36,775 nt of DNA from Bacteroidota bacterium. Lineage in GTDB: Bacteria > Bacteroidota > Bacteroidia > M30B66. The number at the start of each line of letters is the position of its first letter. The first letter of the stretch is position 1. The notes beneath the pieces were generated by a model that saw only the letters and a list, made by a program, of their open reading frames with translations, searched no databases and was not told where the DNA came from. The position numbers and the translations under genes were made by a program. The stretch spans positions 1-36,775 of the forward strand of contig CANHIS010000030.1 in assembly GCA_947460255.1 (NCBI GenBank). The letters run 5' to 3'. Of this stretch, positions 12,254 through 36,569 are shown piece after piece.

Positions 12254-12784
12254 ATGAAACCTTTAAGTAACCGATCGGTAGTTGTTTCAGACAAGAAGTT
12301 CACATTGGCAGAGGGATCTTACCTCCCTGCAGTGATCAAAGGCTTAGGCATTACGATGAGCCACTTTTTCAAGCGTCCCGCAACGGTAAAGTATCCTGAG
12401 CAACAACGTGAGTTTTCGGAAGTTTACCGAGGCAAGCACGTTTTAAAGCGTGATGAAAATGGCGCTGAGCGCTGCACTGCATGCGGATTGTGTGCTGTAA
12501 GTTGTCCGGCAGAAGCCATCACTATGGTGTCGGATGAACGGAAGAAAGGCGAAGAGCATTTATACCGCGAAGAAAAGTATGCAGCGATCTATGAGATCAA
12601 CATGTTGCGTTGTATTTTCTGTGGTTTGTGCGAGGAGGCTTGTCCGAAGCAAGCGATTTTCCTCACCAAAGAAATTGCTCCAGCCAATTACGAACGTGAG
12701 GATTTCATCTACGGGAAAGACAAACTCGTGGAAGGTGTAGAACCGATGAAACGCATTGATATTTCGAAAAGACAAGACCGCTAA
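12254..12784 (+). CDS. nuoI: NADH-quinone oxidoreductase subunit I
   Basis: A 176-residue 8Fe-ferredoxin subunit carrying clusters N6a and N6b, the last relay before N2. Ligands: Cys74, Cys77, Cys80 with Cys130 and Cys84 with Cys120, Cys123, Cys126, in the paired motifs CTACGLCAVSCP and CIFCGLCEEACP. The N-terminal amphipathic segment (residues 20-45, containing GLGITMSHFFKRP) touches NuoH. It is the last gene of this operon part: a strong intrinsic terminator lies about 50 bases downstream, whereas nuoJ, which normally follows, is more than 23 kb away. Confidence 0.97.
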   Translation: MKPLSNRSVVVSDKKFTLAEGSYLPAVIKGLGITMSHFFKRPATVKYPEQQREFSEVYRGKHVLKRDENGAERCTACGLCAVSCPAEAITMVSDERKKGEEHLYREEKYAAIYEINMLRCIFCGLCEEACPKQAIFLTKEIAPANYEREDFIYGKDKLVEGVEPMKRIDISKRQDR

Positions 12785-13032: not shown

Positions 13033-14124
13033 ATGAAAAAATCTTTACTCCTCTCTGCGCTTGCATTTTGCTCATTTACTGCATTTTCTCAAAATGGACT
13101 TGAGAATATCATTGTTGAAACTTATTATGTGTCTGATGCAAACGATGCAACAGTTGATGGCGATGGCGGAGTTTTGCCAGTAGGTTCTGTTACACGCAGA
13201 GTTTATGTTGACATGTTACCTGGATATAAACTCCAAGCTGTTTATGGTGCTCCAGCGCCAAATTTTCATGAGTTAAGAATTGCCACCACTACATTGTTTT
13301 TCAACAACGAAGACCGTGGAGCAATTGCTCCAACTTACACCAAAACACAAGCTCGTGGCAACACAGTTATGTTGGATACTTGGGTTTCTGTTGGTGCAGC
13401 ATGTGCAGGTCAGTTGGGAATTCTTAAAGCATCCGACGACGGTGTTGCTACCAATGTGAACAATGACGGAGTTTTATTGAATGCACATCCTGCTGCAGGA
13501 ATTCCTTTAACAGAACAAGATGGAATGGTTGCAGGTACTCCAGTAAGCGTAACTAGAGTCGGTGCTGATGATCAATTTGCAAAATTTGATGCTCAAAATG
13601 ACGGAACAAATGGTCCGGAATTTCTCACTTCTGATGGGTCTTGGGCTGCTCTAGGAGGCGCAATGGGCCCTGATGCAGCCACAAACCAAGTATTGATTGG
13701 CCAGTTCACAACTGATGGAATTTTGTCGTTCGAATTAAACATCCAACTTGGAACACCTGATGGAGGTGTTGAAAGATATGTTGCTTCTAACCCAGTTGAT
13801 GCAGAAATCGAATTTGCTGGATTAACTTATGTTTCCGACGTAATTACCAAAGCACATTACCAACTTGTAAATAGTCAAACTGTTTCCTTATTCCCAAATC
13901 CAGCATTAGACGAAATTTCCTTTGTGCTTGATGGCGCTAACAATAGCCCTTTGAGATATTCAATCTTTAACATGAAAGGCGAATTGGTTTCTGTAAGAAC
14001 AACTGGGAATTATTCGTCTGACAACGCTGAACGCATCGATATTTCTTCTTTGGCGAAAGGGCAGTACATTCTTGAAGTTATCTCGAATGGAAAACGTTCA
14101 ACAAACAAATTTGTAAAGAACTAA
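13033..14124 (+). CDS. secreted T9SS type A sorting-domain protein, paralog family member 1
   Basis: A 363-residue protein. Residues 1-19 are a Sec signal peptide ending FTAFSQ. Residues 20-275 form a domain I cannot name, starting NGLENIIVETYYVSDANDA and including YVDMLPGYKLQAVYGAP, FFNNEDRGA and TKTQARGNTVMLDTW. The same domain opens the proteins encoded at 17244 and 27981. The last ~75 residues (SLFPNPALDEISF to RSTNKFVKN) are a T9SS type A sorting domain, which routes the protein across the outer membrane and is removed or used for anchoring. It may be secreted or surface-bound; its activity is unknown. A terminator follows closely. It is the shortest family member, with only the shared domain and the sorting tail. 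Confidence 0.9.
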   Translation: MKKSLLLSALAFCSFTAFSQNGLENIIVETYYVSDANDATVDGDGGVLPVGSVTRRVYVDMLPGYKLQAVYGAPAPNFHELRIATTTLFFNNEDRGAIAPTYTKTQARGNTVMLDTWVSVGAACAGQLGILKASDDGVATNVNNDGVLLNAHPAAGIPLTEQDGMVAGTPVSVTRVGADDQFAKFDAQNDGTNGPEFLTSDGSWAALGGAMGPDAATNQVLIGQFTTDGILSFELNIQLGTPDGGVERYVASNPVDAEIEFAGLTYVSDVITKAHYQLVNSQTVSLFPNPALDEISFVLDGANNSPLRYSIFNMKGELVSVRTTGNYSSDNAERIDISSLAKGQYILEVISNGKRSTNKFVKN

Positions 14125-14189: not shown

Positions 14190-17100
14190 ATGAAATGCAT
14201 TATTGCGAGTGCAATTGCCTTGCTGGTGATGGCCATAAACGCTGGCGCACAAGGTACCTTCAGAGGAAAAGTTTCCGATGAAAATGGAGAAACAATTATT
14301 GGAGCGGCAGTTTACCTCAAAACAAATAAATCGGTAGGTACAACTACAGATTTGGATGGTAATTTCTCGCTTACAATAAAAGACAGTTTACCGCAGGTAA
14401 TTCAGATTTCGTTCGTGAGTTACTTATTGATTGAGGAAACAATCCAAGTAAAGAAAGGCCAAGTTTTGGTGAAGAATTTCACAATGAAGCCCAAGGAAAA
14501 CATTATCGGCAACGTTGAAATTATTGCGGATGCTGCAAAAAACAAAGACTACTATTTAGAGAACATTAAAAAGAAATCAACCACATCTATCGACTATATA
14601 TCATCGGAAACGATGAAAAAAACAGGCGACAACAACGTAACAGCTGCGGTTGCCCGAGTAAGTGGCGTTTCTACAAACGGATCCTTTATTACCGTGCGTG
14701 GTATTGGAGACCGTTATTTAAAAACGAATATCAATGGAATGAGAATTCCAACGCTAGATCCATTTACCAATAACATTAAACTTGATTTGTTTCCGGCTAG
14801 TTTAGTGGACAACATCATCATCACAAAAACAGCATCTCCAGATTTACCGGGCGATTGGGCTGGTGCGTATTTGTCTGTTGAAACAAAAGATTACCCAGAT
14901 AAATTAACCATTAGCTTTGAAAATGCATTCACCTACAACCCTCAAACTACAGGTGAAACAATATTATCTACTGATAAAAGCAGTACAGATTGGTTAGGAT
15001 ACGACAACAACTTTAGGGATCTAGATCACAGTAATTTTGCAGCCTTTAATAAAAACATTACACCTTATCAAGAGCTTGCTGCCAATGGGTTAGAAGCTTA
15101 TTATAATTCAATTGGCGTTACTGCTAATACCCAGTGGAATGATACCTACTTTAAATTGGGTTTAGTGCAGCTCGGTTTACTTTCTCCCGGAAATTTTAAT
15201 AATTCTGAAGCTTTTAATCTTGCCAGAAACGAATACAATGCGGGGAACTATAAAGTTGAAGCTTACCAAAAAATCAATGGTGCTTCAGGCGAATCAGGAT
15301 CAAAGTTTGCAAATAACTGGCAGAATAAAACTCAAACTGGCCCGGTAAACTTTTCTCAAAGTTTCAGTATTGGAAATCAATTAAAACTTTTCGGTAAACC
15401 ACTTGGCTTTTTTGTTGGGTACAGATATAACAGCACTTTCAGAAATGATCCAAGTGCGATCGCACAAAGAGCCGCAATCGATAACAATGGAAATGTATTT
15501 AAAATTAATGATGTAACGCAACACGCTACAAGACAGTCGAATGGCTGGAGTGCCCTTTTGAATTTAGCTTATAAGCCATCACCAAATCATTCAGTTGCGC
15601 TAATGTTCATGCCCAATCAAAACGGTGAAAACAATATTCGTAACGATGCAGAATTTGATGACTCTTTCCAAACCCAATTTATCTACACACAAACTCAATT
15701 TTACGAGCAGAGAAACCAAATGGTCTATCAGTTAAAAACGGATCATTATTTCCCTAAATCGAAGTTAAAAATTGACTTTAATGCGTCATATACGAATGGT
15801 AAAAGCAAGGCTCCAGATTTTAAAAGCTTTAACTACTTTTTAAACAATGATGGCCTTTATGAAATTGATAAAACAGCATCACGAACTAGTCGCTTTTACA
15901 GGTATTTATCTGAAAATCTGTTAGACACTAAAGTAGGTTTTGAATTGCCTATTGCAAAGCAACGTGCAGGACTTATCAGAAAAATAAAATTTGGTGGTGC
16001 ATATCAATATTTAGACAGAGATTACGATCAATACAATTACCTACTTCAATTCACCAAACCAGGTAAATTTATTATTGAGAACAATGATATCGCGGCGTTT
16101 TTTGACCTATCGAACTTTGATTATAACGAAGAAGGTCTAATCGATGCATATTACGAAAGAGATGAAAATCCAGGAAACAGAAGCATAGGAAACAGCGCAA
16201 TATCAGCTGGTTTTGCGATGATCGATTACAACTTCAATCCGCAGATCAGAGTATCTGGAGGCTTAAGAGTTGAGCATGCGAACATGTTTACCGACGTTAC
16301 TTTGTATGATTCTTTGGGATATGCGGATGATGATGGAAGACGATTCTTCAAAGACGCGCTTATTGCTTTGTCGCCGATTTCAGGCAAACTAAACGAGACA
16401 AGTTTTCTTCCAAGTGTTAACTTCATTTATAAGCTACGCGACAATGAACAAGCTCCAATTAATTTAAGAGTGAATTACTCGGAAACTGTAGCAAGACCAA
16501 GTCTTCGCGAGCTTTCTGAGGTTTTCATCCTCGACTTTGAATTGCGTGTTCCAGTGTTTGGTAATGCTGACTTAAAAATGGTGAACATCCGGAATTATGA
16601 TATTCGTTTAGAGAATTATTTCAAGTCTGGCGACAACGTTTCTTTGAGTTTATTTTACAAGGATTTTAAAAATCACATCGAATTAACCAACTCGAATTTC
16701 GGATTTAGTTGGCAAAACGTCGACAAATCGATGGCATCAGGTTTCGAAATTGAAGGCCGGAAAAAAATTGTGAAAAACCTTGAATTCAGAGCAAATGTCA
16801 CCCTAACACAATCTAGAACAGAATTCACTCAAACAGTCTTGCAGCTTAACAATGGCGTAAAAACATACCTTCCTATTGAAGATGTAAGTAGACCAATGTT
16901 TGGTCAAGCACCATATGTACTCAACGGTATTTTGAATTACACTTCAGATACATTGGGATTGACTGCAACGATCAGCTACAATCGCCAAGGAAAAAGACTT
17001 GTAATTACCAATGGTTTAGGTATTCCTGACGTGTACGAGATGCCTCGTGATATGATCGATATTAAAGTGAGTAAAAACGTAGGGAAACATTGGTTATTCT

Positions 17101-17231
17101 CTTTAACAGTAAGGGATTTACTAAATACGGCTATCCAAAGACGGTACAACTTTACAGACGGCACAATCATCGATTTCGACAGTTTTAGATTTGGAACCTT
17201 CTATCAATTTGCTGTTCAATACCGACTATAA
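14190..17231 (+). CDS. TonB-dependent outer-membrane receptor with carboxypeptidase-regulatory-like domain
   Basis: A 1013-residue protein. The signal peptide ends near residue 20 (INAGAQ). Residues 22-107 are the CarbopepD regulatory-like domain (GTFRGKVSDENGETIIGAAV, then TTTDLDGNFSL). The plug domain follows (about 125-230), with VARVSGVSTNGSFITVRGIG and LPGDWAGAYLSVETKDYP. The rest is a beta-barrel ending in an aromatic-rich strand (FGTFYQFAVQYRL). The family imports substrates across the outer membrane with TonB-ExbBD energy. No SusD homologue lies beside it, so it is not a classical SusCD pair, and the substrate is unknown. It sits between two genes of the same secreted paralog family, and the next gene begins 12 bases after its stop, so the gene products probably act together. 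Confidence 0.92.
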   Translation: MKCIIASAIALLVMAINAGAQGTFRGKVSDENGETIIGAAVYLKTNKSVGTTTDLDGNFSLTIKDSLPQVIQISFVSYLLIEETIQVKKGQVLVKNFTMKPKENIIGNVEIIADAAKNKDYYLENIKKKSTTSIDYISSETMKKTGDNNVTAAVARVSGVSTNGSFITVRGIGDRYLKTNINGMRIPTLDPFTNNIKLDLFPASLVDNIIITKTASPDLPGDWAGAYLSVETKDYPDKLTISFENAFTYNPQTTGETILSTDKSSTDWLGYDNNFRDLDHSNFAAFNKNITPYQELAANGLEAYYNSIGVTANTQWNDTYFKLGLVQLGLLSPGNFNNSEAFNLARNEYNAGNYKVEAYQKINGASGESGSKFANNWQNKTQTGPVNFSQSFSIGNQLKLFGKPLGFFVGYRYNSTFRNDPSAIAQRAAIDNNGNVFKINDVTQHATRQSNGWSALLNLAYKPSPNHSVALMFMPNQNGENNIRNDAEFDDSFQTQFIYTQTQFYEQRNQMVYQLKTDHYFPKSKLKIDFNASYTNGKSKAPDFKSFNYFLNNDGLYEIDKTASRTSRFYRYLSENLLDTKVGFELPIAKQRAGLIRKIKFGGAYQYLDRDYDQYNYLLQFTKPGKFIIENNDIAAFFDLSNFDYNEEGLIDAYYERDENPGNRSIGNSAISAGFAMIDYNFNPQIRVSGGLRVEHANMFTDVTLYDSLGYADDDGRRFFKDALIALSPISGKLNETSFLPSVNFIYKLRDNEQAPINLRVNYSETVARPSLRELSEVFILDFELRVPVFGNADLKMVNIRNYDIRLENYFKSGDNVSLSLFYKDFKNHIELTNSNFGFSWQNVDKSMASGFEIEGRKKIVKNLEFRANVTLTQSRTEFTQTVLQLNNGVKTYLPIEDVSRPMFGQAPYVLNGILNYTSDTLGLTATISYNRQGKRLVITNGLGIPDVYEMPRDMIDIKVSKNVGKHWLFSLTVRDLLNTAIQRRYNFTDGTIIDFDSFRFGTFYQFAVQYRL

Positions 17232-17243
17232 TACAAATCAGTC

Positions 17244-18584
17244 ATGAGAAAATTTCTTTTATTACTGTTGAGCTTGATGGCAATTAATCAGGCAAATGCA
17301 CAACTCGAGAATATCGTCGTTGAATTGTATTATATCTCCGACGCCAATGATGCTACCGATACCCTCGGTGGCGGACTCCCAATTGGAAGCAAAACATACC
17401 GCGTATATGCCGATTTAGCGCCAAATGCAAAAATCAAAAGATTGTACGGCGATGCGAACCACCCATTAATCGTTAGAAGTACTGAGAATTTCTTCAACAA
17501 TAAAATTGATGGAAAATCTTTTGGTTACGAATTCCCGAAATCAAGATTAGATGAGAACACTGTTGCATTAGACACATGGCTAACCATCGGACAAACTACT
17601 ACCAATTCTTCTCGCCAAGCTGGCGTGCTTAAGGTAAACGATAGCGATGGATCATTTATCGCAGGTATTGGTGTGAATGACGGAGGAAGCGCAGAAATTG
17701 CGGATGGCCTTTTAAACAACAACGATCCACTTGCTGGAATTCCATTGAGCACTTCCGATGGGAACGATACCCTTGATAATTTACCTACAGCATCTGGTTC
17801 AATTGGAATTGTAAATATTATCGATGAATCCGATTCAACCATTTTTGGATCTATAATTCCTGGAAATAATTTTGAAAGCAGAAATGCTTCAGTATTTAAT
17901 TCCGGAACAAAAGGAGTTGATACCACGCTCAATCATGTGTTGCTCGCTCAATTAACCACTTTAGGGGAATTGTATTTTGAATTAAATATTGAAGTGGAGA
18001 TTGAAACACCAATCGGAAATCAAATAATTAAATACGTTGCAAGAGATTCTGTTTTAGCTGCCGATGAATTGCTAAATCCCGCACTGGTGTATCCTCCTCA
18101 GTGCGGTTGCCAGGATCCGGATTATCTAGAGTTTAGTCCGACTTATGCCTGCGGAAGCCCCGATTCTTGTCAAACTTTAATTGTATTTGGATGCCTTGAT
18201 CCAATCGCTTGCAATTATGATCCATCTGCAAACTTCAACATCATCGATTTGTGCTGCTATATTGGAGACTGCAATGATTTTGATATTTCTGTTGTTTGTC
18301 CTGAATTATCTATCAACGATCTTGATAACACCAAAAACGCCATCCAATCTTTCCCAAATCCCGGAAAAAACAGCGTTTCTATCACAGGCAATTTTACACC
18401 GTTCTCACTGTACAATGTTTCAATTTGGAACTCCGTTGGCGCCAATGTGCTCAACCAATCGAATGTTTCAACATCAGCCGGAGGCACAATTCTTTTAAAC
18501 AACCTAAACTTAGAACCAGGCATTTATTTTATTTCTGTAGAAAATAATAAACTGCGCCAATTCGGTAAATGGGTTAATCAATAA
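17244..18584 (+). CDS. secreted T9SS type A sorting-domain protein, paralog family member 2
   Basis: A 446-residue protein. The signal peptide ends INQANAQ. The shared domain (about residues 21-285) begins LENIVVELYYISDANDA and keeps FFNNKIDGK, ENTVALDTWL, HVLLAQLTT and LYFELNIEV, but is more divergent than the other two copies. Residues about 286-356 are a cysteine-rich insert with CGCQDPDYLEF, GCLDPIACNYDPSANF and CCYIGDC, a pattern repeated in many secreted Bacteroidota proteins. The end (IQSFPNPGKNSVSI to GKWVNQ) is a type A sorting domain. It lies directly downstream of the TonB-dependent receptor gene with no terminator between, suggesting a surface partner of that receptor. Function unknown. 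Confidence 0.88.
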   Translation: MRKFLLLLLSLMAINQANAQLENIVVELYYISDANDATDTLGGGLPIGSKTYRVYADLAPNAKIKRLYGDANHPLIVRSTENFFNNKIDGKSFGYEFPKSRLDENTVALDTWLTIGQTTTNSSRQAGVLKVNDSDGSFIAGIGVNDGGSAEIADGLLNNNDPLAGIPLSTSDGNDTLDNLPTASGSIGIVNIIDESDSTIFGSIIPGNNFESRNASVFNSGTKGVDTTLNHVLLAQLTTLGELYFELNIEVEIETPIGNQIIKYVARDSVLAADELLNPALVYPPQCGCQDPDYLEFSPTYACGSPDSCQTLIVFGCLDPIACNYDPSANFNIIDLCCYIGDCNDFDISVVCPELSINDLDNTKNAIQSFPNPGKNSVSITGNFTPFSLYNVSIWNSVGANVLNQSNVSTSAGGTILLNNLNLEPGIYFISVENNKLRQFGKWVNQ

Positions 18585-18592
18585 CTACGAAA

Positions 18593-19309
18593 ATGATCAA
18601 ACATTTCCTACTTTGCTTGTTGTCGCTCAGTTTATTTTCCTCTTGCGAGGATGATGTAGTGGAAGAGGTGCGACCAACTATCGATTCAATAATGGACATT
18701 GAAGGCAACACTTACCTCACCGTGAAAATCGGAGAACAATGGTGGATGGCAGAAGATCTGAAAGTAAAGAAATATCGAAACGGAGATTTAATTGAGCAAG
18801 CACAAAGTGAGGCTGGATGGGCAAATACAGCCGCTGGCTATTGTTTATTAGAAAACAATCCGTCTGCTCCAGGTTTGCTTTACAGTTGGGAAGCCGTAAA
18901 CCACAGTTCAGGCTTAGCACCCAATGGTTGGCATGTTGCCACTGAAGCCGATTGGCAAGAGCTAGAAAAACATCTCGGCATGAGTGACGAGGATGTTCAA
19001 AAAGTCAATTGGAGAGAAAGTGGCGCTTGTGGCGACCAACTCAAAGTGAAAGGCCCAGAATCATGGCTTAGTTTTGAGAATGTTTGGGGCAACAACAAGA
19101 GCGGATTTACCGCCCTCACTCCAGCTTGCAGACTCGATAATGGTTCTTGGGCAAGCCCAGGACTTGGAAGTTGCGGGTATTGGTGGAGCGCAACAGAAAA
19201 AGAACACAACACAGCTTATTTCAGAAATTTAGATTACAAAAAAAGCGGTGTTTTTAGATACTATATCAGTAAGAAATACGGAATGGCAGTGCGTTGCGTG
19301 AAGAATTAA
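18593..19309 (+). CDS. FISUMP-domain lipoprotein
   Basis: A 238-residue protein with a lipoprotein signal peptide: hydrophobic stretch, then LFSSC with the lipidated Cys at about residue 18, followed by acidic EDD. The body matches the Fibrobacter succinogenes major paralogous (FISUMP) domain: DIEGNTYLTVKIGEQWWMAE, then LYSWEAVNHSSGLAPNGWHV, EADWQELEKHLG, WGNNKSGFTALTPACR and GYWWSATEKEHNTAYFRNL. The domain is common in surface proteins of Bacteroidota and Fibrobacter, and is related in fold to C-type-lectin-like or formylglycine-generating-enzyme-like modules; its role is not established. Spacing of 8 bases from the previous stop implies one transcript. Confidence 0.88.
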   Translation: MIKHFLLCLLSLSLFSSCEDDVVEEVRPTIDSIMDIEGNTYLTVKIGEQWWMAEDLKVKKYRNGDLIEQAQSEAGWANTAAGYCLLENNPSAPGLLYSWEAVNHSSGLAPNGWHVATEADWQELEKHLGMSDEDVQKVNWRESGACGDQLKVKGPESWLSFENVWGNNKSGFTALTPACRLDNGSWASPGLGSCGYWWSATEKEHNTAYFRNLDYKKSGVFRYYISKKYGMAVRCVKN

Positions 19310-26245: not shown

Positions 26246-27940
26246 ATGAAAACACAAATTACCAAAATGGCTGCTTTGGCAATTATTGCTTTGGCTGCTA
26301 ACACCCAGGCATCTGCTCAGCTAGCGTCTCAGCAGAACCTTGGAGAAGCGTGTGGATGTCCTCCAGTGGCATCAAGAACTACAGTTTCTATGTCAACATT
26401 AGCTACCATCGGTGGTGCTAATGATGGCGATTTAACTGCTACCAATACGATCTTAACTTGTGACAAGACGTATATCCTTGACAACAAAATTTATGTACCT
26501 GCTGGTAAGACTCTAACCATTCAGCCAGGTACAGTAATTAAAGGTGCTCCAACTGGAACTACTTTGGCTGCGAATGCTATCCTTGTAATGCGTGATGGTA
26601 AAATCTTCGCTAGCGGAACAGAAAGCTGCCCTATCGTTTTCACTGCTCAAGCAGATCCACTCGATGGTACTTACGCTTTGACTAACAAAGGTCAGTGGGG
26701 TGGTATCGTAATTCTTGGAAAAGCAACCAATAACTTAACTACAGCTGCAAACTACAGCCCAACTGGTGCTGCTGGTTTCTTCGGTACAGCTCAAGTTGGT
26801 GGCGTTAACTCTGTAAATGGTGGTGATGGTATTGGTTTCATCGAAGGTTTCACTTCAGCAGATGCACGTAACTTATACGGTATGCCTCCAGGCCAAGCAG
26901 ACGATAACGATAACTCTGGTGTTATTCGTTATGTATCTATTCGTCACGCTGGAGCTTCTGTAGGAGCTAACAACGAGTTGAATGGTCTTACTTTAGGTTC
27001 AGTAGGTCGCGGAACTACAATCGAAAACCTTGAAGTTGTTGCGAACGACGATGATGGTGTTGAGCCATTCGGAGGTACTGTGAACATGAAATATCTAACA
27101 TTGATGTTCAATAACGACGACAACTTTGACTATGACTTAGGTTACACTGGTAAAGTTCAGTTCATGCTTTCTGTTAAGCTTGATGCTGCAACTTTCACAG
27201 GTGGAGATAGCGGTATCGAAGCTGATGGTGACGATAACAAAGCAAATCCAACTTTGCTTTCTCGTGCTACTATCTACAATTCAACTTTCATTGGTAACGG
27301 TTCTAACACAACTCCAACAGGTGGTGGATCTGGTCCTTGGGCGATCAACGCAAAAGAAAAAGTTGAAGGTTCAATCTACAGCTCAATCTTTGCTAACTAC
27401 CGTTCAGGTTTGAACTTGATCAAATCAATGGGAACTAGAACAGGTACTGCTGAGTCTTACCACAACTGGAGAGGTCTTAACACTGCAGGTAATGCAATTA
27501 CTCCTACTTTAGTTATTGAGTGTAATACATTCGTTGGTAACACTGCTTCTTTAACTGTAGGTGGATCTACTGCTAACCTTGTTGCTGGTGATGAGGCAAA
27601 ATTCCTTGCTGATGGTAACGTTGTAGCAGCTACTGTTGCTGGTTTAGATTTCAACTTTGCTGCTTCTGGAACAACTGTTTCTGATCAGTACAATGCAGTA
27701 CCAAGCCCACAATTGGCTTCTACTTGTGTTCCTCCTGCTGATGGATTCTTCGTTTCTACAAACTACCGTGGTGCTTTCAAACCAGGTCAAACTTCTTGGT
27801 TGTCTAACTGGTCTTACTCAGCTCTTTTAGATGCTACTAACGGTCTAGTTGCTTGTCCTACCGACATCAACAAAGACGGTCAAACCAACACAAACGACTT
27901 CCTTGATCTAGTTGGTCAATTCGGAACTTCTTGCGACTAA
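26246..27940 (+). CDS. secreted beta-helix-like protein with C-terminal dockerin-like calcium loop
   Basis: A 564-residue protein. The signal peptide ends TQASAQ (residue ~25). Most of the protein looks like a repetitive right-handed beta-helix or related surface fold: LDNKIYVPAGKTLTIQPGTV, GQWGGIVILGKA, GVIRYVSIRHAGAS, NLEVVANDDDGVEPFGG and NNDDNFDYDLGYTG. The C-terminus (residues 537-564) contains DINKDGQTNTND, a complete 12-residue EF-hand-type loop (Asp540, Asn542, Asp544, Asp551) followed by FLDLVGQFG, as in one half of a type I dockerin. A cysteine lies on each side. There is no T9SS sorting domain, so its route across the outer membrane is unclear. Codon use is strongly biased (Ala GCT, Gly GGT, Thr ACT), suggesting high expression. 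The next gene starts 40 bases later with no terminator. Confidence 0.85.
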   Translation: MKTQITKMAALAIIALAANTQASAQLASQQNLGEACGCPPVASRTTVSMSTLATIGGANDGDLTATNTILTCDKTYILDNKIYVPAGKTLTIQPGTVIKGAPTGTTLAANAILVMRDGKIFASGTESCPIVFTAQADPLDGTYALTNKGQWGGIVILGKATNNLTTAANYSPTGAAGFFGTAQVGGVNSVNGGDGIGFIEGFTSADARNLYGMPPGQADDNDNSGVIRYVSIRHAGASVGANNELNGLTLGSVGRGTTIENLEVVANDDDGVEPFGGTVNMKYLTLMFNNDDNFDYDLGYTGKVQFMLSVKLDAATFTGGDSGIEADGDDNKANPTLLSRATIYNSTFIGNGSNTTPTGGGSGPWAINAKEKVEGSIYSSIFANYRSGLNLIKSMGTRTGTAESYHNWRGLNTAGNAITPTLVIECNTFVGNTASLTVGGSTANLVAGDEAKFLADGNVVAATVAGLDFNFAASGTTVSDQYNAVPSPQLASTCVPPADGFFVSTNYRGAFKPGQTSWLSNWSYSALLDATNGLVACPTDINKDGQTNTNDFLDLVGQFGTSCD

Positions 27941-27980
27941 TTATCACAAACCAAAACCTTAAATAATAGAACTTTCTATC

Positions 27981-30900
27981 ATGAAAAAATTAATGTTAGG
28001 CCTTGGTTTGCTTTTGTCGGCAGGCTTGGTTAACGCACAAAATGGTCTTGAGAGCATCATCGTAGAGAAATACTACGTATCGAATGCTGTTGATGCCGCT
28101 GGTTCAGTTGGAACACTTCCAACAGGATCTGTTACTTACCGTTTCTATGTTGACATGTTGCCAGGATACAAATTCCAGGCTGCATACGGTGCACCAGCTG
28201 GTGGCGACGTACTTACGTTCTCAACAACTACTACATTCTTCAACAACGAAGACCGTGGTGCTGCAACTCCTACTTACACTAAAACTCAAGCACGCGGAAA
28301 TTCTGTAATGCTAGATTCATGGTTGTCGGCTGGTGGAGCTGCTGTTGGAAACTTTGGTGTTTTGAAATCAGAAGATGATGGTGTTGCTACTGTAGTAAAC
28401 AACTCTTCTCCAGTAATGCTTCAGAATGCTGATGCTTCTGCAGGTATTCCTTTAACTACGCAAGATGGTCTTTTATTAGGATCTCCTTCTTCTGTAACTT
28501 TCGTAGGTCAAGCTGAGCCTCAAGCTCTTGCTGCATTAGATGCTACAAGCCAAGCAGGTTCTTTGTATCAATTAACTGATGGTGCTTGGTCATCATTGGT
28601 TGGTGCTACTGGCCCAACTGCAACAAACCGTGTATTAATTGCACAAATCACTACTGATGGTATCCTTTCTTACGCGTTGAACATCCAGATCGGAACTCCA
28701 ACTGGTGGTGTTGAGCGTTACGTTCACGACACTCCAACTGGTGCTGAGATCGATATCGCTTCTTTGTCAGGAACTTTGGGAGCTCCAAACACGCTTCCTA
28801 CAGTATCTATCACTTCACCAACTAACGGTCAAGGTTTCATTACTGGTTCTACCATCAACATCGCTGCTACTGCTGCTGATGCTAATGGTTCTGTTGCTTC
28901 TGTTGCTTTCTTCAACGATGGCGTTCTTATTTCAACAGATAACACTGCTCCTTACGAAGCTTCTTACACTGGAACAACTGGAACAGATGTTCTTACTGCT
29001 GTAGTAACTGATAACGAAGGTGCAACTGTAACTTCTGCTGGTGTTACAATCAACATCGCGAGCAATCCTCCACCATCAGTATCTATCACTGCTCCAACAG
29101 CAGGTGCTTCTTTCATCACTGGTGATGTTGTAAACATTACTGCAACTGCAACCGATAACGGAAGCGTAACTGGTGTTGAGTTCTTCGTAGATGGTAACTT
29201 GTTGTCTACTGATAACACTGCTCCATACGCAGCTACTTACACTTCAACTTTGGGTAACCACTTGATCACTGCTCGTGCAACTGACAATGCTGGTCTTCAA
29301 GCTACATCTGCTGCTGTTTCGATCGTTGTTGTAAACAACATTCCTCCAACTGCAGCTTTAACTTCACCAGCTGCTGGTTCATTGTTCACTGCTCCTGCAG
29401 TAGTAGCAATTTCTGCTAACGCATCTGATGCTGACGGTACTGTTACGCAAGTTGAGTTTTTCGTAAACAACGTATCAATCGGTGTAGATAACTCTGCTCC
29501 ATATTCAATTAACTGGACAAGCGTAATCGGAAATGCAAGCATCGTTGCTAGATCAACAGACAACCGTGGAGCGGTTACAGCTTCTGCTGCTGTAGTTCTT
29601 AGCATCGCAGATCCAAATGCACTTCCTTACAACATTGGTTCTTCAGTAAACGCTTGTAACGATACTTCATTCTGCTTGCCATTAAACGTGGTTGACACAG
29701 TAGCTAACATTATCGGTTACGACGTTGTTTTGAATTTCGATCCTACACGTGTAACTCCAACTGGAGTTGTTACAGTTGCTTCTGATTTGGTTAACGCTTC
29801 TTTCACTGAAGTAAGTAACTCAATCAACCAAGTTGCTGGAACAATGAACATATCTGTTTATTTCAACGGTTCAGCTCCTGCTTCAACTCGTTTTGCTGGT
29901 GCAGGTGAATTGTTCTGCGTACAGTTTACTAAAAATGCTGGATTTGCTCCAGATGATACTGCAAGCTTTACTGTTCCTTTCCTACAGGAATCATACTTTA
30001 CAGGTGTTCAGTCTAAGCTAGTACAAGAAGGTGACTATGTATCTTTCCGTGACTCTTTGTACACAGGTACTTTGAAGCTTTGGTCTGATAACAGCGTTAT
30101 TCCATACAACGTTGCTAATCCTAACGAATTCTTGATCACTAATATCCGTGGTACAGATGCAAATTGTGCAAACCCATCAGTAGTAGCAGTTCAACCTGAT
30201 ACAAACGGTGTATTTGTTTACAGTTCATTCAATGGTTTGAGCATCAACATCGACAAAGACATCCTAGGAACAACAGATGTTCAGGCTGTAGTTAACGGTT
30301 TCGACGCTTTATTGGCTCGTCGTGTTCTCATCAATGACGTAACATTGGTTCCATCAATCTACCAAATGGTTGCTATGGATGTAAACATCGATGGTGTTGT
30401 AAGTGCAGGAGACGTTTCTCAAATCAATCAGCGTGCTGTATTGTTCATTCCTGAATTCAAGCAAGCTTGGAACTACGACATCAACGGAGTATCAAACGGT
30501 TCTTTGTCGAAAGACTGGTTGTTCATCGATTCTTCAACTGTAGCTTCAACTCCAGCTTACTCTATCTCTGCAACTTACCCTGCAAATGATGGTGTTGGTT
30601 TCTCTAAATCAGTTGTTCCAACAATTGATTTCTGCTTGCCAATTATCGTTGCTGATTTCGCAAATTGTCCTGACTACACTCCAGAAACTTATGTAGGTAT
30701 CATGGTAGGTGATGTTAATGGTGACGTTGCAACAGCTAACCCAAGTGCTGGTTTCAAATCAGCTACAGAAAAAGTGATCTTCGATCTAAACCGTGCAGTT
30801 TATACAGCAAATTCAGTTGAAGTTCCTGTAACTGTTATGTCTTTGGATGCTATCAACGCTATCGACTTCTCTTTGAAGTTCAACGAAAACAAACTTTCTT

Positions 30901-31391
30901 TTGCTGGTGTAACTGGTGTTGCTTCTAACTTAGAAGCATTGAGCCACTTCAACACAAACGACAAAACGCTTCGTTTCACTTCAAGTTCACTTGACAATGT
31001 TGACGCTGCTCGTGCAGTTGCATTTGTAAAATTCAACATGAACGGTTCAGTTGATGCTTCTGATTTGATGAACACATTTGGTTACATCAACGGTACTCAA
31101 GCTGAAGTAGAAGTTATCGGTAACTTCGTAACAGGAATTAGCGCAAACGATTACAACGAGGTTGTAGCGGTATTCCCTAACCCAGCTACAAGTGTTGTTA
31201 ACGTTATCGCTCCAGAAGCAACTTCTATCCAAATGATGGATGCTGCTGGTCGTGTTATTTCTGAATCAGTTTCAGTTCCTGCAGGTCAAACACACAGCAT
31301 TTCAACTTCTGAATTTGCTGCAGGTGTTTACTTCGTAAAAATCAGCAACAACAATTTCTCAGTAATGAAGAAAGTTGTTGTTAACAAGTAA
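27981..31391 (+). CDS. T9SS type A protein with shared N-domain, Ig repeats and cohesin-like modules; paralog family member 3
   Basis: A 1136-residue protein. The signal peptide ends LVNAQ. Residues 20-265 are the shared domain of unknown function (NGLESIIVEKYYVS, FYVDMLPGYKFQAAYGAP, FFNNEDRGA), much closer to member 1 than to member 2. Residues ~270-545 are three bacterial Ig-like repeats of about 90 residues (SITSPTNGQ, VAFFNDGVLISTDNTAPY and equivalents). Residues ~547-690 look cohesin-like (GYDVVLNFDPTRVTP), then comes a dockerin-like loop DVNIDGVVSAGD (Asp800, Asn802, Asp804, Asp811) and a partial one (GDVNGD, ~912). A second cohesin-like segment spans ~930-1050 (IDFSLKFNENKLSFAGV). The type A sorting domain begins at VFPNPATSVVNV. 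Codon use matches its upstream neighbour: extreme GCT/GGT/GTT/ACT preference. It is probably an abundant surface protein that can bind partners. A very strong terminator follows. Confidence 0.87.
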   Translation: MKKLMLGLGLLLSAGLVNAQNGLESIIVEKYYVSNAVDAAGSVGTLPTGSVTYRFYVDMLPGYKFQAAYGAPAGGDVLTFSTTTTFFNNEDRGAATPTYTKTQARGNSVMLDSWLSAGGAAVGNFGVLKSEDDGVATVVNNSSPVMLQNADASAGIPLTTQDGLLLGSPSSVTFVGQAEPQALAALDATSQAGSLYQLTDGAWSSLVGATGPTATNRVLIAQITTDGILSYALNIQIGTPTGGVERYVHDTPTGAEIDIASLSGTLGAPNTLPTVSITSPTNGQGFITGSTINIAATAADANGSVASVAFFNDGVLISTDNTAPYEASYTGTTGTDVLTAVVTDNEGATVTSAGVTINIASNPPPSVSITAPTAGASFITGDVVNITATATDNGSVTGVEFFVDGNLLSTDNTAPYAATYTSTLGNHLITARATDNAGLQATSAAVSIVVVNNIPPTAALTSPAAGSLFTAPAVVAISANASDADGTVTQVEFFVNNVSIGVDNSAPYSINWTSVIGNASIVARSTDNRGAVTASAAVVLSIADPNALPYNIGSSVNACNDTSFCLPLNVVDTVANIIGYDVVLNFDPTRVTPTGVVTVASDLVNASFTEVSNSINQVAGTMNISVYFNGSAPASTRFAGAGELFCVQFTKNAGFAPDDTASFTVPFLQESYFTGVQSKLVQEGDYVSFRDSLYTGTLKLWSDNSVIPYNVANPNEFLITNIRGTDANCANPSVVAVQPDTNGVFVYSSFNGLSINIDKDILGTTDVQAVVNGFDALLARRVLINDVTLVPSIYQMVAMDVNIDGVVSAGDVSQINQRAVLFIPEFKQAWNYDINGVSNGSLSKDWLFIDSSTVASTPAYSISATYPANDGVGFSKSVVPTIDFCLPIIVADFANCPDYTPETYVGIMVGDVNGDVATANPSAGFKSATEKVIFDLNRAVYTANSVEVPVTVMSLDAINAIDFSLKFNENKLSFAGVTGVASNLEALSHFNTNDKTLRFTSSSLDNVDAARAVAFVKFNMNGSVDASDLMNTFGYINGTQAEVEVIGNFVTGISANDYNEVVAVFPNPATSVVNVIAPEATSIQMMDAAGRVISESVSVPAGQTHSISTSEFAAGVYFVKISNNNFSVMKKVVVNK
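28789..29611 (+). repeat. three tandem Ig-like repeats within the 1136-residue gene
   Basis: Three in-frame units of about 90 codons begin near 28789, 29065 and 29335. Shared features are a (V/A)SIT(S/A)PT-like opening, a V(A/E)FF(N/V)(D/N) strand, the phrase (S)TDNTAPY or VDNSAPY, and a closing TDN(E/A/R)GA. They resemble bacterial Ig-like (Big_7-type) domains, normally spacers or carbohydrate- or adhesion-related modules. The DNA of the units is also visibly similar, for example around GATAACACTGCTCC, indicating fairly recent duplication or strong codon constraint. Confidence 0.8.
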
Positions 31392-31416
31392 GATTAACTT
31401 CGGTTAGTTTTTGTTT

Positions 31417-31453
31417 ATAAGCCCCGGTCAGCAGAGCCGGGGCTTATTTTTTT
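31417..31453 (+). terminator. strong intrinsic terminator after the 1136-residue gene
   Basis: ATAAGCCCCGG (31417-31427) and CCGGGGCTTAT (31437-31447) form a perfect 11-base-pair stem with a 9-base loop, followed by a run of T. This is the most stable terminator in the window, consistent with a highly transcribed gene pair. Confidence 0.95.
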
Positions 31454-31959
31454 AAATTAACTTTTAAATATTACAATGAATTCAATTATATCTGCTAGTG
31501 CATTATTTCTTATTCAATTCATTGATATCGTTGAATAATTTACCAAGGTCTTATGAATATTCAATTTCTGATTTCATTGCGCATCGCCAAATAAATGCTA
31601 GATATTCAAGTAAAAATTATGAGAATAAAAAATCTAAATCCTTAATTTCTAAAAATAATTGCAGAAAAGAATTAAATAAATAACTGAAATTAAAGAACAA
31701 CGAATGTGTATTAAAAGCCAAAATATCAAATAACTACAGCATTAATTCATTAACGTATTGGTAACAATCAAGTGATAGCTTGCTTATAATTTGTTGATAC
31801 TTTCGCCCGTGAGGGAAAGCACGATTTTCAAACAAAAGGCTAACACACCAATTAATCATTTATTTATTTTAATTGCTCAATTAATTATTCAATTATGGAT
31901 GCTGTATTCAAATTTTATTCTTCTATGAAATCTAACAGACATCAAACAATTGTTGAATA
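31454..31959. other. AT-rich intergenic region before the type B sorting-domain gene
   Basis: About 500 bases without a credible gene. A 61-codon frame at 31498-31683 is only Asn, Ser, Lys and Ile codons typical of AT-rich noncoding DNA. Near 31798 is a possible -7 element. The last ~150 bases are rich in AATTAATTATT-type sequence and probably form the leader of the gene at 31960. Confidence 0.5.
31798..31805 (+). promoter_or_regulatory. possible -7 element (TACTTTCG)
   Basis: TACTTTCG differs from TAnnTTTG at one base and has the same TTCG ending as the element before nuoJ. It would give the gene at 31960 a leader of about 150 bases. The -33 box is unclear (a TTG lies 15 bases upstream). 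Confidence 0.3.
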
Positions 31960-34929
31960 ATGACTTCATCTAGAATCTCAAAGCTAAGTTTCTCTTCAAT
32001 ATTAAACTTAGCTTCTGCATTTAAAGGGATAAAAAATTCTTTGAAATTTATTCCGCATTTAATTGCAATTTGTGTGTTTAGTTTAACTGCTCTTCCTGCT
32101 AATTCAACGGCACTCCCTACAGCTGCAGCAGTAATCGATTTAAATGATACTATTTTTATTGATGTCGAAAATGCAATTGTTGGAGCTGGTTTTATTGATT
32201 ATCCTGTTTACATTAATTCTGATGATCCTATTCAAACAATGGATTTTCAGTTTTTCTTTAACAATGCCGAATTTACATTTAGCAGCATTATCAATGTTGC
32301 AGGAATTGAAACCGTTTTAGGCAACGTGGGTCCAGATGCTGCCTCTGGTGGATTTATTGAATTCCGATTCACATCGCTCGATATCGGATCAACTTATCCA
32401 AATGGAACAACATTGGTTTTTCTTCGCTTCAATACCACCTCCACTGTTCCTTGCGAACTTAACCCAGTTATCAATCAGTTTTCTGTAATAAAATTAGGCA
32501 CACTCAACGCCATCGGAAACGCACAAGCCACTATACTAGGATGCGCAAATCCACCTGCGGCAGCTGGTGCAGACCAAGAAATTTGTGGCGCAGAAGCTAC
32601 ATTGCAAGGCAACGAACCATTTATTGGTGCAGGTTCTTGGAGTGTAATCTTAGGAACTGCCACTGTACAAGATCCAAATCTTCCAAACACAAACGTAATT
32701 GGATTGTCGCCAGGCATCAACACTTTTCGTTGGACTATGCCTGCCACAAGCAATTCGCCAGTTACGTTCGACGATGTAACAATCACACGCTACGAAATTC
32801 CGAGCACATCGGTTGCTGGAGAAAATATCATACTGTGTTTGTCCAATGGCGTTTTAAATGCTGAAACACCAACTGTTGGTTCAGGTATTTGGGAAATCGT
32901 TCAAGGATCTGCCGTTTTCGAAGACGAAACCAGTCCGTTCTCTAGCGTCTCTAGTCTAACACCTGGCGACAATATTTTCAGCTGGACCGTTACAAACGGA
33001 ACTTGCCCCGAATCAACATCACAAGTAATTGTTTTTAGAAAAGATTCAGTTTACGCTGGTATTGATCAAACAATTTGCGCCGACACCATTACACTCGGTG
33101 CTGCAGAACCTGCAGAAGGAACTGGTGTTTGGTCGGTGATTTCAGGCGATGGAACATTTGCAGATGCAACACTCTTCAATACAATTGTTACCAATCTTGC
33201 AGCAGGAGAAAATGTTTTTCAGTGGACCGTTACAGGCAGCAATTGCCCCGATTCAACAGATCAAGTTTCAATTGTAATTCAGTGCAACATTCCTCCAGTA
33301 CTCATTAACGATCTTGTTGAATTACTCGAAGACGGCGATGGAAGCGGTAACATTCTAGACAATGGAGACAATGATCCTGATGGAACTACACTCTTGGTAA
33401 GCACAACAGCGCTAAGCGGACCATCAAATGGAACCATTACCATCAATTCTGATGGAAGTTTCACATACACACCCGATCTAAACTTTTACGGCTCCGATAC
33501 AGTACTCATCGAAGTTTGTGATCAAGGCCTTCCGCTTCCCGGCATTTGTGGAGTAGACACCTTGATTGTTTCAGTGTTGCCAGTTAACGACGCGCCAACA
33601 GTTGAAAATGAGAACATTGTTGTTTTAGCAGGTGTACTTTACAATGGAAACCTTTTAGACAACGACTCAGACATTGAAAACACAACCCTCACTGTTGATC
33701 CAATTGTTGTAGATGATGCCAACAACGGTGTATTTACTTTCAACAGCGACGGATCTTTCAGCTACACTGCCGATGCAGGTTTCACAGGCTTCGACACAGT
33801 AATTGTTTCTGTTTGTGATTCAGGTTTCCCATTGCCTGCCATCTGTGTTAATGATACTATTGTATTCGATGTTCAAGCGTTCACTTTGGTTGTTTTTGCG
33901 GGTGATGACATCACAATCTGCGATTCAACATACTTCTTAGAAGGTTCAGAAATTCCAGCTGGAGGTACAGGTACTTGGACGCAAGTCACAGGAACTGGAG
34001 CGTTTGTCGATCCTACATTGGCTTTGGCAGAAGTAAACAATCTAAATCCTGGTGAAAACACCTTCGTTTGGACAGTTTCATTGGGCAACGTTACAGTATC
34101 CGATACAGTTGTGGTTACAGTGAGTGAACCTGTTGCTCAGGCTGTTGCAGGATCAGATCAAGATGTTTGTTTGAATGAAGCTTTGTTAAACGCTACGGCT
34201 CCAGTAATTGGAACTGGTGTTTGGAGCATATTCTCCGGATCATCGATCATTGTTGATCCAAACTCAAATACAACCGCAGTAAATGAACTAAGTCTTGAAA
34301 ACACTTTCATCTGGACCGTTTCAAATGGGGCTTGTAGCTCTTCAGATTCAGTGACAATCAACCGCTTGGAACAACCATTTGTAAATGTAGGATCAGATAC
34401 TTCGATTTGTGCTTTCGAATTACCAATCAACCTTCCAATTACGGTAACTGGCACAGCAACTTGGACTTGGGATGTGCTTGCAGGAACAGCGCTAATTGAT
34501 GGTGCACTTTCTACCTCTCCAACCTTCTCAGGTTTGACTGCAGAGATTACAAATACTTTGGTGCTTACCGCACAAAATGGAAACTGTATTGCTACCGATA
34601 CATTAAACATCACCTTATTTAGCGATGAGTCTGACCTCTGTACAAGCCAAGAAATATACATCCCTGAAGGGTTCTCTCCAAATGGTGATGGTGTGTTTGA
34701 CTTTTTTGAAATCCTAAATCTCAACGGAAGAAATGCGGAGGTTAGAGTTTATAATCGTTGGGGTAATCTTGTTTATGAAAGCCTCGACTATCAAAACAAT
34801 TGGGGAGGCACCTCAGATATAGGCTTACAATTCGGAGGTAACAATTTGCCAGAAGGCACATACTTCTACCAAATTCAAATCGAAGGTGAAACTGAAATCA
34901 GAAACGGCATTTTGACAATATGGAGATAA
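31960..34929 (+). CDS. large surface protein with T9SS type B (gliding-motility-associated) C-terminal domain
   Basis: A 989-residue protein. A long N-terminal leader (residues 1-50, hydrophobic core IPHLIAICVFSLTALPA) serves as signal peptide. Residues ~60-195 are a cohesin-like or similar beta-sandwich (VPVY-like FIDYPVYINSDDPIQTMDFQ is the key part). Six PKD-like repeats of ~80 residues follow at about 204, 286, 366, 648, 730 and 810, each with AG.DQ..C, a G.G.W strand and a closing F.WTV..G.C. Two cadherin/VCBS-like modules (~445-640, NDPDGTTLLV, NSDGSFTYTPDLNFYGSD) split them. Residues ~896-989 are the type B sorting domain (IYIPEGFSPNGDGVFDFFEI, VYNRWGNLVYES, LPEGTYFYQI). Proteins of this class include SprB-like adhesins and usually depend on a SprF partner, which is encoded immediately downstream with overlap. 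Confidence 0.92.
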   Translation: MTSSRISKLSFSSILNLASAFKGIKNSLKFIPHLIAICVFSLTALPANSTALPTAAAVIDLNDTIFIDVENAIVGAGFIDYPVYINSDDPIQTMDFQFFFNNAEFTFSSIINVAGIETVLGNVGPDAASGGFIEFRFTSLDIGSTYPNGTTLVFLRFNTTSTVPCELNPVINQFSVIKLGTLNAIGNAQATILGCANPPAAAGADQEICGAEATLQGNEPFIGAGSWSVILGTATVQDPNLPNTNVIGLSPGINTFRWTMPATSNSPVTFDDVTITRYEIPSTSVAGENIILCLSNGVLNAETPTVGSGIWEIVQGSAVFEDETSPFSSVSSLTPGDNIFSWTVTNGTCPESTSQVIVFRKDSVYAGIDQTICADTITLGAAEPAEGTGVWSVISGDGTFADATLFNTIVTNLAAGENVFQWTVTGSNCPDSTDQVSIVIQCNIPPVLINDLVELLEDGDGSGNILDNGDNDPDGTTLLVSTTALSGPSNGTITINSDGSFTYTPDLNFYGSDTVLIEVCDQGLPLPGICGVDTLIVSVLPVNDAPTVENENIVVLAGVLYNGNLLDNDSDIENTTLTVDPIVVDDANNGVFTFNSDGSFSYTADAGFTGFDTVIVSVCDSGFPLPAICVNDTIVFDVQAFTLVVFAGDDITICDSTYFLEGSEIPAGGTGTWTQVTGTGAFVDPTLALAEVNNLNPGENTFVWTVSLGNVTVSDTVVVTVSEPVAQAVAGSDQDVCLNEALLNATAPVIGTGVWSIFSGSSIIVDPNSNTTAVNELSLENTFIWTVSNGACSSSDSVTINRLEQPFVNVGSDTSICAFELPINLPITVTGTATWTWDVLAGTALIDGALSTSPTFSGLTAEITNTLVLTAQNGNCIATDTLNITLFSDESDLCTSQEIYIPEGFSPNGDGVFDFFEILNLNGRNAEVRVYNRWGNLVYESLDYQNNWGGTSDIGLQFGGNNLPEGTYFYQIQIEGETEIRNGILTIWR
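32557..34640 (+). repeat. six PKD-like repeats in two blocks
   Basis: About 80-codon units start near 32557, 32812, 33052, 33894, 34145 and 34384, interrupted after the third by two cadherin-like modules. Each has an AGxDQxxC-like opening and an F-WTV-x-G-x-C close; the second and third units share nearly identical DNA around their close (32985 and 33225). The last unit is the most divergent (VGSDTSICAFELP, TWTWDVLAG). Confidence 0.75.
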
Positions 34930-35855
34930 GCATTACCCGTCGCATTGTAAAATTACTTTTACTTCTGCTGGCACCGTCGGCGCTAAGCGCTCAACAAGAT
35001 CCGATGTACAGTATGTACATGTTTAATCCGCTTTCGATTAACCCAGCTTACGCGGGTTCACTCGATCAATTTCAAGCAGTTGGAATGTTTCGTAGACAAT
35101 GGATGAAATTTCCGGGATCTCCAGGAACATCTACCTGCACTGTGCATGGTCCGCTCAAGAATGAAACAATGGGCTTAGGACTAAGCATGATGAACGACCA
35201 AGTTGTTTTTTTCAAAACAACCAGCTTTATGGTATCGTACGCCTACAAGTTGAAGTTAGAGAAATCAACCTTAGCCTTCGGGCTTCAAACAGGCGTTCGC
35301 AATTTCAATGTCAACCTCACTGAAGTGGAATTGTCGCCCGATTACAAATACGACGCAGCATTTGCCAACAATTTTTCGAGTTGGAATTTTAATTTCGGTG
35401 CCGGAGTATTCTGGTATGGCGAAAAATGGTACGGTGGATTCAGCATTCCGCACCTCAACAACCACTTATTGCGTGATGATTTGTTAAATTCTGACGATGT
35501 AGCGCGCCTTCGAACACACATGAATCTTTATGGAGGTTATGTGTTCGATTTAGGTTCTGATTTGAAACTAAAGCCATCAGTTCTTTTAAAAGGCGTTGCT
35601 GGAGCTCCAGTTCAGATGGATATCAATTCGAATCTTTACTACCAAGATTTATATGGAATTGGCTTGAGCTACAGAACTGGAAATGCCATTCTTGTGCTTG
35701 CAGAAGTGAAGGTGAATAAAAATTTCAGATTAGGTTACGCTACCGATTTCACCGTAAATAAACTTTCTGGAAGAGTTGGGGCAACGCACGAAATCATGGT
35801 TCGTTATGATTTCATGACCAACAAATCAGGCACTTTCACACAAAGAGATTTTTAA
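34920..35855 (+). CDS. PorP/SprF family outer-membrane protein
   Basis: A 311-residue protein. The signal peptide ends ALSAQ, directly followed by QDPMYSMYMFNPLSINPAYAGS, the signature opening of the PorP/SprF family. The body alternates polar and hydrophobic residues as expected for an outer-membrane beta-barrel (GLGLSMMNDQVVFFKTTSF, FGAGVFWYGEKWYGGFSIPH, LRLGYATDF-like NFRLGYATDFTVNKLSG). SprF-type proteins assist the export or surface attachment of type B sorting-domain proteins by the T9SS. Its first 10 bases overlap the end of the 989-residue gene, a strong sign of functional pairing and translational coupling. A terminator follows. Confidence 0.94.
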   Translation: MEISITRRIVKLLLLLLAPSALSAQQDPMYSMYMFNPLSINPAYAGSLDQFQAVGMFRRQWMKFPGSPGTSTCTVHGPLKNETMGLGLSMMNDQVVFFKTTSFMVSYAYKLKLEKSTLAFGLQTGVRNFNVNLTEVELSPDYKYDAAFANNFSSWNFNFGAGVFWYGEKWYGGFSIPHLNNHLLRDDLLNSDDVARLRTHMNLYGGYVFDLGSDLKLKPSVLLKGVAGAPVQMDINSNLYYQDLYGIGLSYRTGNAILVLAEVKVNKNFRLGYATDFTVNKLSGRVGATHEIMVRYDFMTNKSGTFTQRDF

Positions 35856-36071: not shown

Positions 36072-36569
36072 ATGTCCTCTATCATTTTCCTCATCCTCGC
36101 AGTCCTAACCCTTGCATCGGCATTGATGGTAGTTTTTTCTAAAAGCCCCATCTACAGCGTGCTATGGCTCGTGATCTGCTTTTTCTCCATCACAGGACAT
36201 TACATCCTGCTGGACGCCCACTTTCTGGCAATTGTTAACCTGATCGTATACGCCGGTGCCATCATGGTACTGTTCCTGTTTGTGATCATGTTGCTTAACC
36301 TTAACAAAGAAACAGAACCCCATAAGCCTTTCTTGCTCAAACTTGCAGCAGTTGTTTCAGGCTGTTTGTTGATGCTTGTTTTGGCCGCTTCGCTGAAAGA
36401 TTTCTCAATCAGTTCAAGCGCTCCGCTTACCGACGGCTTCGGAACTGCCAAAGAGGTTGGGATGATTCTCTTCAAAAAATTTCTTGTTCCCTTCGAAGTC
36501 GCTTCCATCCTTTTCATCTCTGCGATGGTAGGAGCGGTTATCCTTGGTAAAAAATCTGTTAACGACTGA
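36072..36569 (+). CDS. nuoJ: NADH-quinone oxidoreductase subunit J
   Basis: A 165-residue membrane subunit with five hydrophobic helices. The recognisable region is [32 protein letters not shown], containing the pi-bulge helix with [10 protein letters not shown] that is conserved in complex I. The C-terminal helix ([22 protein letters not shown]) is also typical. Length is normal. It normally sits directly after nuoI. Here it is preceded by its own promoter and 23 kb of surface-protein genes. nuoK follows after 11 bases. Confidence 0.96.

Follow-up and report, generated by a model that had tools for sequence, protein, structure and literature searches.

A dockerin-like C-terminal tail and neighbouring cohesins in a probable T9SS surface-assembly locus of Bacteroidota

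Organization of the locus

The window analysed here is a 36,775-nucleotide stretch of contig CANHIS010000030.1 (GenBank assembly GCA_947460255.1, Bacteroidota bacterium). A T9SS translocon was found in the genome to which it belongs, and the gene set listed below is best explained as a T9SS surface-assembly locus. The locus begins at position 13033, upstream of the span covered by the preliminary description of this DNA (26246-34929). Its features and flanks are as follows.

12254-12784 and 36072-36569: nuoI and nuoJ, flanking the locus
13033..14124, + strand: 363-aa protein with a VEKYY domain (see below) and a T9SS type A domain; start of the locus
13081-13845: VEKYY copy of the 363-aa protein
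14190..17231, + strand: TonB-dependent receptor (CarboxypepD_reg and Plug), locus member
17244..18584, + strand: 446-aa protein with a VEKYY domain and a T9SS type A domain, locus member
17298-18107: VEKYY copy of the 446-aa protein
18593..19309, + strand: 238-aa Fib_succ_major protein, a conserved member of the locus
19360-25224: T9SS protein of fibronectin type (1954 aa), within the locus
26246..27940, + strand: 564-aa secreted beta-helix-type protein (weak G8), without T9SS domain and without lipobox
27854..27937, + strand: half-dockerin tail of the 564-aa protein (28 residues, C-terminal, Cys-bracketed)
27863-27898, + strand: calcium loop of this tail (residues 540-551)
27981..31391, + strand: 1136-aa scaffold-like protein (VEKYY, three Big_7, cohesin, dockerin-like segment, cohesin, T9SS type A)
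28032..28790, + strand: VEKYY domain of the 1136-aa protein (residues 18-270, ~250 aa)
29613..30056, + strand: cohesin 1 of the 1136-aa protein (residues 545-692), by predicted fold against 5nrk_A
30318..30740, + strand: dockerin-like segment of the 1136-aa protein (residues 780-920), with loop 800-811 at 30378-30413
30753..31148, + strand: cohesin 2 of the 1136-aa protein (residues 925-1056), by Pfam and profile-profile comparison
31170..31388, + strand: T9SS type A sorting domain of the 1136-aa protein (residues 1064-1136), by TIGR04183
31960..34929, + strand: 989-aa protein with an N-terminal cohesin, PKD/Ig/cadherin repeats and a T9SS type B domain
32137..32550, + strand: cohesin 3, in the 989-aa protein (residues 60-197), by profile-profile comparison with cohesin 2
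34920..35855, + strand: PorP/SprF protein, the expected shuttle for its type B neighbour

In the window's genus this 23-kb surface locus is lodged in the complex I operon, with nuoI on one side and nuoJ (Oxidored_q3) on the other. Genome G001 shows this placement too, and in G004 nuoI and nuoJ flank the two contig pieces; in G006, from another genus, the surface locus sits elsewhere. Among the loci compared, the 1954-aa protein is confined to the window's own genus.

The N-terminal ~250 residues of the 1136-aa protein are found again in the 363-aa and 446-aa proteins and were named the VEKYY domain, of which three to four copies are present per locus. A Pfam scan of this domain (~250 aa) matched no family. 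It was modelled as a beta-sandwich (pLDDT 89.7), for which a fold search against the PDB gave no confident match; comparison with several cohesins gave a VIA Z of about 5, tied with unrelated Ig-like folds.

A single dockerin-type repeat at the end of the 564-aa protein

It had been proposed that the 564-aa protein ends in a complete dockerin-type calcium loop (Asp540 to Asp551) and carries no T9SS sorting domain. Both statements were confirmed, the latter by domain searches: neither a T9SS domain (domain profiles) nor a lipobox was found in this protein. The loop (D-I-N-K-D-G-Q-T-N-T-N-D) lies within the final 28 residues (CPTDINKDGQTNTNDFLDLVGQFGTSCD) and is bracketed by two cysteines, which probably form a disulfide. 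Together with the loop at residues 800-811 of the 1136-aa protein, it fits the canonical calcium loop D-x-N-x-D-G-x-x-N/S-x-x-D (PF00404), and the Asp and Gly residues of the tail loop as well as both cysteines are retained in all 7 of the 7 closest orthologues.

A classical dockerin has two repeats and the 564-aa tail has one. The window tail scores below the cut-offs of both Dockerin_1 (PF00404; 14.1 bits, cut-off 22.9) and NF041540 dockerin_GC (14.8 bits, cut-off 29). Its double-repeat relatives clear the Dockerin_1 cut-off with up to 34.7 bits, and five of them clear that of dockerin_GC with 29.2-41.7 bits. Because these relatives pass both cut-offs, the tail can be identified, on the level of sequence, as half of a dockerin, i.e. 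a calcium loop plus helix. The carbohydrate-degrading enzyme bearing a dockerin that would define a cellulosome is not seen here, the 564-aa protein having only a weak G8 match in Pfam.

The tail motif is present in a single copy in the 4.1-Mb genome (E = 1.4e-16), and a DNA pattern for the tail gave 1 forward match and 0 matches with the reversed control. This single copy rules out a genome-wide sorting tag in the window's organism. Several variants of the module were observed in other loci. Both cysteines are lost, with the calcium loop kept, in the tails of L081-L083, L200 and L204 (NPTDLNNDGITDINDFSIFIGKF). In L063, L064 and L065 the module has other settings: it directly follows the signal peptide in a formylglycine-type protein, is duplicated at a C-terminus, or stands, again duplicated, ahead of a T9SS domain.

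The tail in place of other anchors

Anchors were compared in a sample of 30 proteins of the 564-aa family that came from the genome of the window and related genomes, with some of the lipoboxes identified by eye. The seven tail-bearing members have neither sorting domain nor lipobox, and each of the remaining intact members shows either a sorting domain or an N-terminus of lipoprotein type. Since T9SS domain, lipobox and tail are mutually exclusive in the sampled members, with never two together, the tail acts like an alternative kind of anchor, in place of the T9SS domain with which relatives of the 564-aa protein are equipped.

Among the 92 distinct tail-bearing proteins that were collected, the tail is at the extreme C-terminus in 86 and occurs together with a T9SS domain in only 2. 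The remaining 6 tails are internal or N-terminal, and a strictly C-terminal signal was therefore ruled out as a general description of the module. In the 1.6 Mb searched of genome G291, 13 tail proteins and 60 sorting-domain proteins were found, and no protein had both.

Cohesins of the two neighbouring proteins

The preliminary description had also pointed, on pattern, to two cohesin-like segments in the 1136-aa protein and one at the start of the 989-aa protein. Our results support all three as cohesins, the first by predicted fold and the others by family. A structure model of residues 545-1056 of the 1136-aa protein was built from 17 orthologues, in which cohesin 1 (545-692) has a pLDDT of mostly 90-96. 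The best VIA-align match was 5nrk_A (Z 16.1, rmsd 2.4 Å over 134 residues), and all 50 PDB entries among the matches listed are cohesins, which rules out a plain Ig or invasin fold for this segment. Foldseek likewise ranked cohesins of cellulosomes at the top, with a lowest E of 6e-11. The assignment of cohesin 1 rests on structure because its profile-profile match to cohesin 2 is weak.

Cohesin 1 fills the structure match list of the 545-1056 model, and cohesin 2 was assigned by Pfam and profile-profile comparison. When the segment was scanned alone, residues 944-1024 exceeded the PF00963 cut-off (26.9 bits, cut-off 24.1); the match appears only with the isolated segment, no cohesin being reported in a Pfam scan of the full-length 1136-aa protein, and it fell slightly below the cut-off in a six-frame genome search (22.1 bits). 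Pfam Cohesin matches were obtained in 7 of the 17 scaffold orthologues. The N-terminal domain of the 989-aa protein aligned with cohesin 2 by hhalign with a probability of 99.9% (E = 3e-33). Scanning this domain of the window protein with PF00963 gave no match, and 13 of the 20 members of its family do match Pfam Cohesin. The window's genome contains two members of the cohesin family of the locus (A9), both within the locus.

A second dockerin-like loop, between Asp800 and Asp811 of the 1136-aa protein, is present as had been described (D-V-N-I-D-G-V-V-S-A-G-D), with its Asp and Gly residues conserved in the orthologue alignment. The dockerin-like segment around it (780-920) shows the highest conservation in the scaffold (68% mean column identity versus 55% and 44%) and was modelled at a pLDDT of about 40. 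Dockerin_1 matches this segment in 17/17 orthologues (best E 3.4e-6), with the window's own copy at 17.6 and 20.7 bits and thus under the cut-off of 22.9; it is the sole Dockerin_1-like segment of the window's genome. The type A sorting domain attributed to the 1136-aa protein was recovered with TIGR04183 (51 bits), and a type B domain was detected in the 989-aa protein (TIGR04131, 48 bits; PF13585, 78 bits).

Conservation of the tail, the VEKYY domain and the cohesins

A sequence scan gave 24 relatives, all in records of metagenome-derived or uncultured Bacteroidota or of unclassified bacteria. In a class-level survey of 395 genomes, the tail module was found in 41 and the VEKYY domain in 42; both were present in 38, compared with 4.4 expected (hypergeometric P = 8e-45, relatedness being ignored). 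The tail gene lies directly upstream of the VEKYY scaffold gene in 35 of these 38 genomes. The order tail gene, then scaffold gene is held wherever a contig has both, and gene order is kept across many Bacteroidota families. The locus is common in environmental Bacteroidota, and its gene set is conserved in freshwater Bacteroidota. Cohesin, dockerin-like segment and cohesin are all present in 26 of the 31 complete scaffolds beside a tail gene, a count in which some genomes are included from two collections. Genome G375 has two additional double-tail genes that alternate with two additional genes for cohesin plus T9SS-domain proteins, in what seems to be the rest of the locus beyond a contig break; this arrangement speaks for a cohesin as the partner of the tail.

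In five of the sampled loci (G196, G110, G138, G263 and G328) the tail protein is kept and no cohesin or dockerin-like segment was detectable in the scaffold. These scaffolds retain the VEKYY domain and the sorting domain, and Ig, PKD, beta-helix-like or Cys-rich regions replace the cohesin-dockerin-cohesin part; the tail sequence is unaltered in three of the five loci. The same apparently holds for the f52 lineage, where a tail protein has a neighbour with VEKYY and T9SS domains and neither cohesins nor dockerin-like segments were seen in the part searched. The 1.6 Mb searched of G291 contained, besides the 13 tail proteins, no cohesin of the locus families, although the models may miss diverged cohesins. 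In family f52 (L158-L192; G069 and G291), dozens of unrelated secreted proteins carry the tail, single or doubled, at their C-terminus, and several of these proteins adjoin proteins with VEKYY and T9SS domains.

As the tail occurs without detectable cohesins, either the cohesins of these lineages have diverged or lie elsewhere, or the tail has another receptor. The constant partner of the tail in the loci without detectable cohesins is the VEKYY domain of the neighbouring T9SS protein. From the persistence of the tail where cohesins were undetected, and the constancy of its VEKYY neighbour, it follows that the tail is best regarded as a surface-docking tag.

Codon bias

The genes for the 564-aa and 1136-aa proteins have the strongest codon bias among the window genes for which it was computed (Nc 36.8 and 34.3; fraction of C-ending codons, counted over six NNC/NNT codon pairs, 0.64 and 0.67). 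Corresponding values are Nc 41-52 and 0.33-0.43 C-ending for the other surface genes of the locus, 0.44 C-ending for PorP/SprF and 0.48-0.62 for the nuo genes, at higher GC3; in the ribosomal-protein operon the values span 0.32-0.71. In 5 other lineages, too, the bias of the pair exceeds that of neighbouring locus genes, in one of them weakly. Since both genes share this strong bias, joint high expression of the two proteins is suggested.

How the 564-aa protein may be held at the surface

The 564-aa protein is probably docked at the cell surface, because its anchor has been swapped for a half-dockerin and the next two genes encode exported cohesins. We favour, at roughly an even chance, the reading in which the tail docks into a cohesin of the T9SS-exported neighbours, with the sorting-domain proteins holding the 564-aa protein on the surface. 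The tail would then bind one of these cohesins, presumably in a calcium-dependent manner, and the 1136-aa and 989-aa proteins would retain the 564-aa protein. The dockerin-like segment of the scaffold may link to a second cohesin, in another scaffold copy or in the 989-aa protein, giving a small meshwork. Several observations weigh against cohesin docking: five scaffolds, and apparently f52, keep the tail and its neighbour without detectable cohesins; the part of G291 that was searched has 13 tail proteins and no cohesin of these families; the tail is a single repeat; and both cysteines are lost in L081-L083, where the calcium loop stays. To cross the outer membrane, the 564-aa protein may be carried with the scaffold through the T9SS or take another route. 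The T9SS transports folded proteins and requires a C-terminal domain (PMC9251779), so a tail protein could conceivably cross as a passenger. More speculatively, and rather doubtfully, the tail may be an export-and-anchor ticket, binding in the periplasm to the cohesin or VEKYY domain of a folded T9SS substrate and hitchhiking with it through the SprA pore, a tag that some lineages would have spread to dozens of proteins.

Were the tail a general surface-docking tag whose receptor is VEKYY or another constant protein of the locus, with cohesins and dockerin-like segment serving scaffold-scaffold contacts, its persistence in lineages without detectable cohesins would be accounted for: proteins with both a VEKYY and a T9SS domain are found in 38 of the 41 tail-positive genomes, these lineages included, and VEKYY proteins adjoin tail proteins in f52 genomes. 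The VEKYY beta-sandwich is weakly similar to cohesins among other folds, but within the range of a common arrangement; co-occurrence may merely reflect a conserved locus, and the extra tails of G375 accompany extra cohesins, not extra VEKYY domains. We consider this reading unlikely. A reading without any role for cohesins, in which the secretion machinery itself recognises the tail as a third type of C-terminal T9SS signal or as the signal of a different export route, seems to us more unlikely still. The C-terminal position of 86 of the 92 tails and their near exclusivity with the T9SS domain, together with the lack of overlap in the searched part of G291, are what such a signal would give, but dockerins are typically C-terminal anyway. 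Moreover, N-terminal and internal copies of the module exist, two of the proteins carry it ahead of a genuine T9SS domain, and the tail, with its dockerin calcium loop, is a member of a dockerin family. Finally, the cohesins may bind the scaffold's own dockerin-like segment, with the 564-aa tail only a calcium-stabilised cap. The high conservation of that segment would fit such self-assembly, which nevertheless leaves unexplained both the replacement of an anchor by the tail in the 564-aa family and the tails on dozens of unrelated f52 proteins, and which we regard as improbable.

Significance and comparison with known systems

T9SS substrates are recognised via their C-terminal domain, and proteins without this domain are therefore not counted as surface proteins. 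If true, a docking tail that replaces the T9SS domain would add a class of Bacteroidota surface proteins and a second, non-covalent tier of attachment; if the hitchhiker route is true, proteins without any sorting domain would reach the Bacteroidota surface. Codon usage in the core pair, the 564-aa and 1136-aa proteins, is of the kind that marks very highly expressed genes. With a single client and three cohesins, their binding being predicted, the locus would offer a natural cohesin-dockerin system that is small, can be tested and lies outside the breakdown of carbohydrates. In a literature search, nothing was found on cohesin-dockerin docking in T9SS-bearing Bacteroidota.

The pairing of T9SS type B substrates with PorP/SprF is known (PMC12618676), and the 989-aa gene followed by PorP/SprF has the same arrangement but differs by the N-terminal cohesin of its product. 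The fold of cohesin 1 and the calcium loop of the tail are shared with type I cellulosomal cohesin-dockerin pairs (5nrk, 1ohz; fold Z 16), whereas identity is about 9-16%, no cellulase is present and the dockerin has one repeat. With the NF041540 GC-type dockerin domain-anchored proteins the tail shares C-terminal, Cys-bracketed dockerin loops, although it has one repeat and scores 14.8 bits versus 29. Two further systems are non-cellulosomal cohesin-dockerin complexes. For the Cloacimonadota 'Ca. Stygibacter', a cohesin scaffoldin that is attached to the surface by a C-terminal domain has been proposed (PMC8542988), so that cohesins on a surface-anchored scaffold with a C-terminal sorting domain are common to both. 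The 'planctosome' of freshwater Planctomycetes is a cohesin-dockerin machinery without a link to cellulose (PMC6461901) and is in this respect similarly non-cellulosomal. The locus described here differs from both in having one presumably abundant beta-helix client instead of several enzymes, a single-repeat dockerin, a scaffold that bears VEKYY and a dockerin-like segment of its own, and a fixed, conserved gene set with a TonB receptor in many Bacteroidota families.
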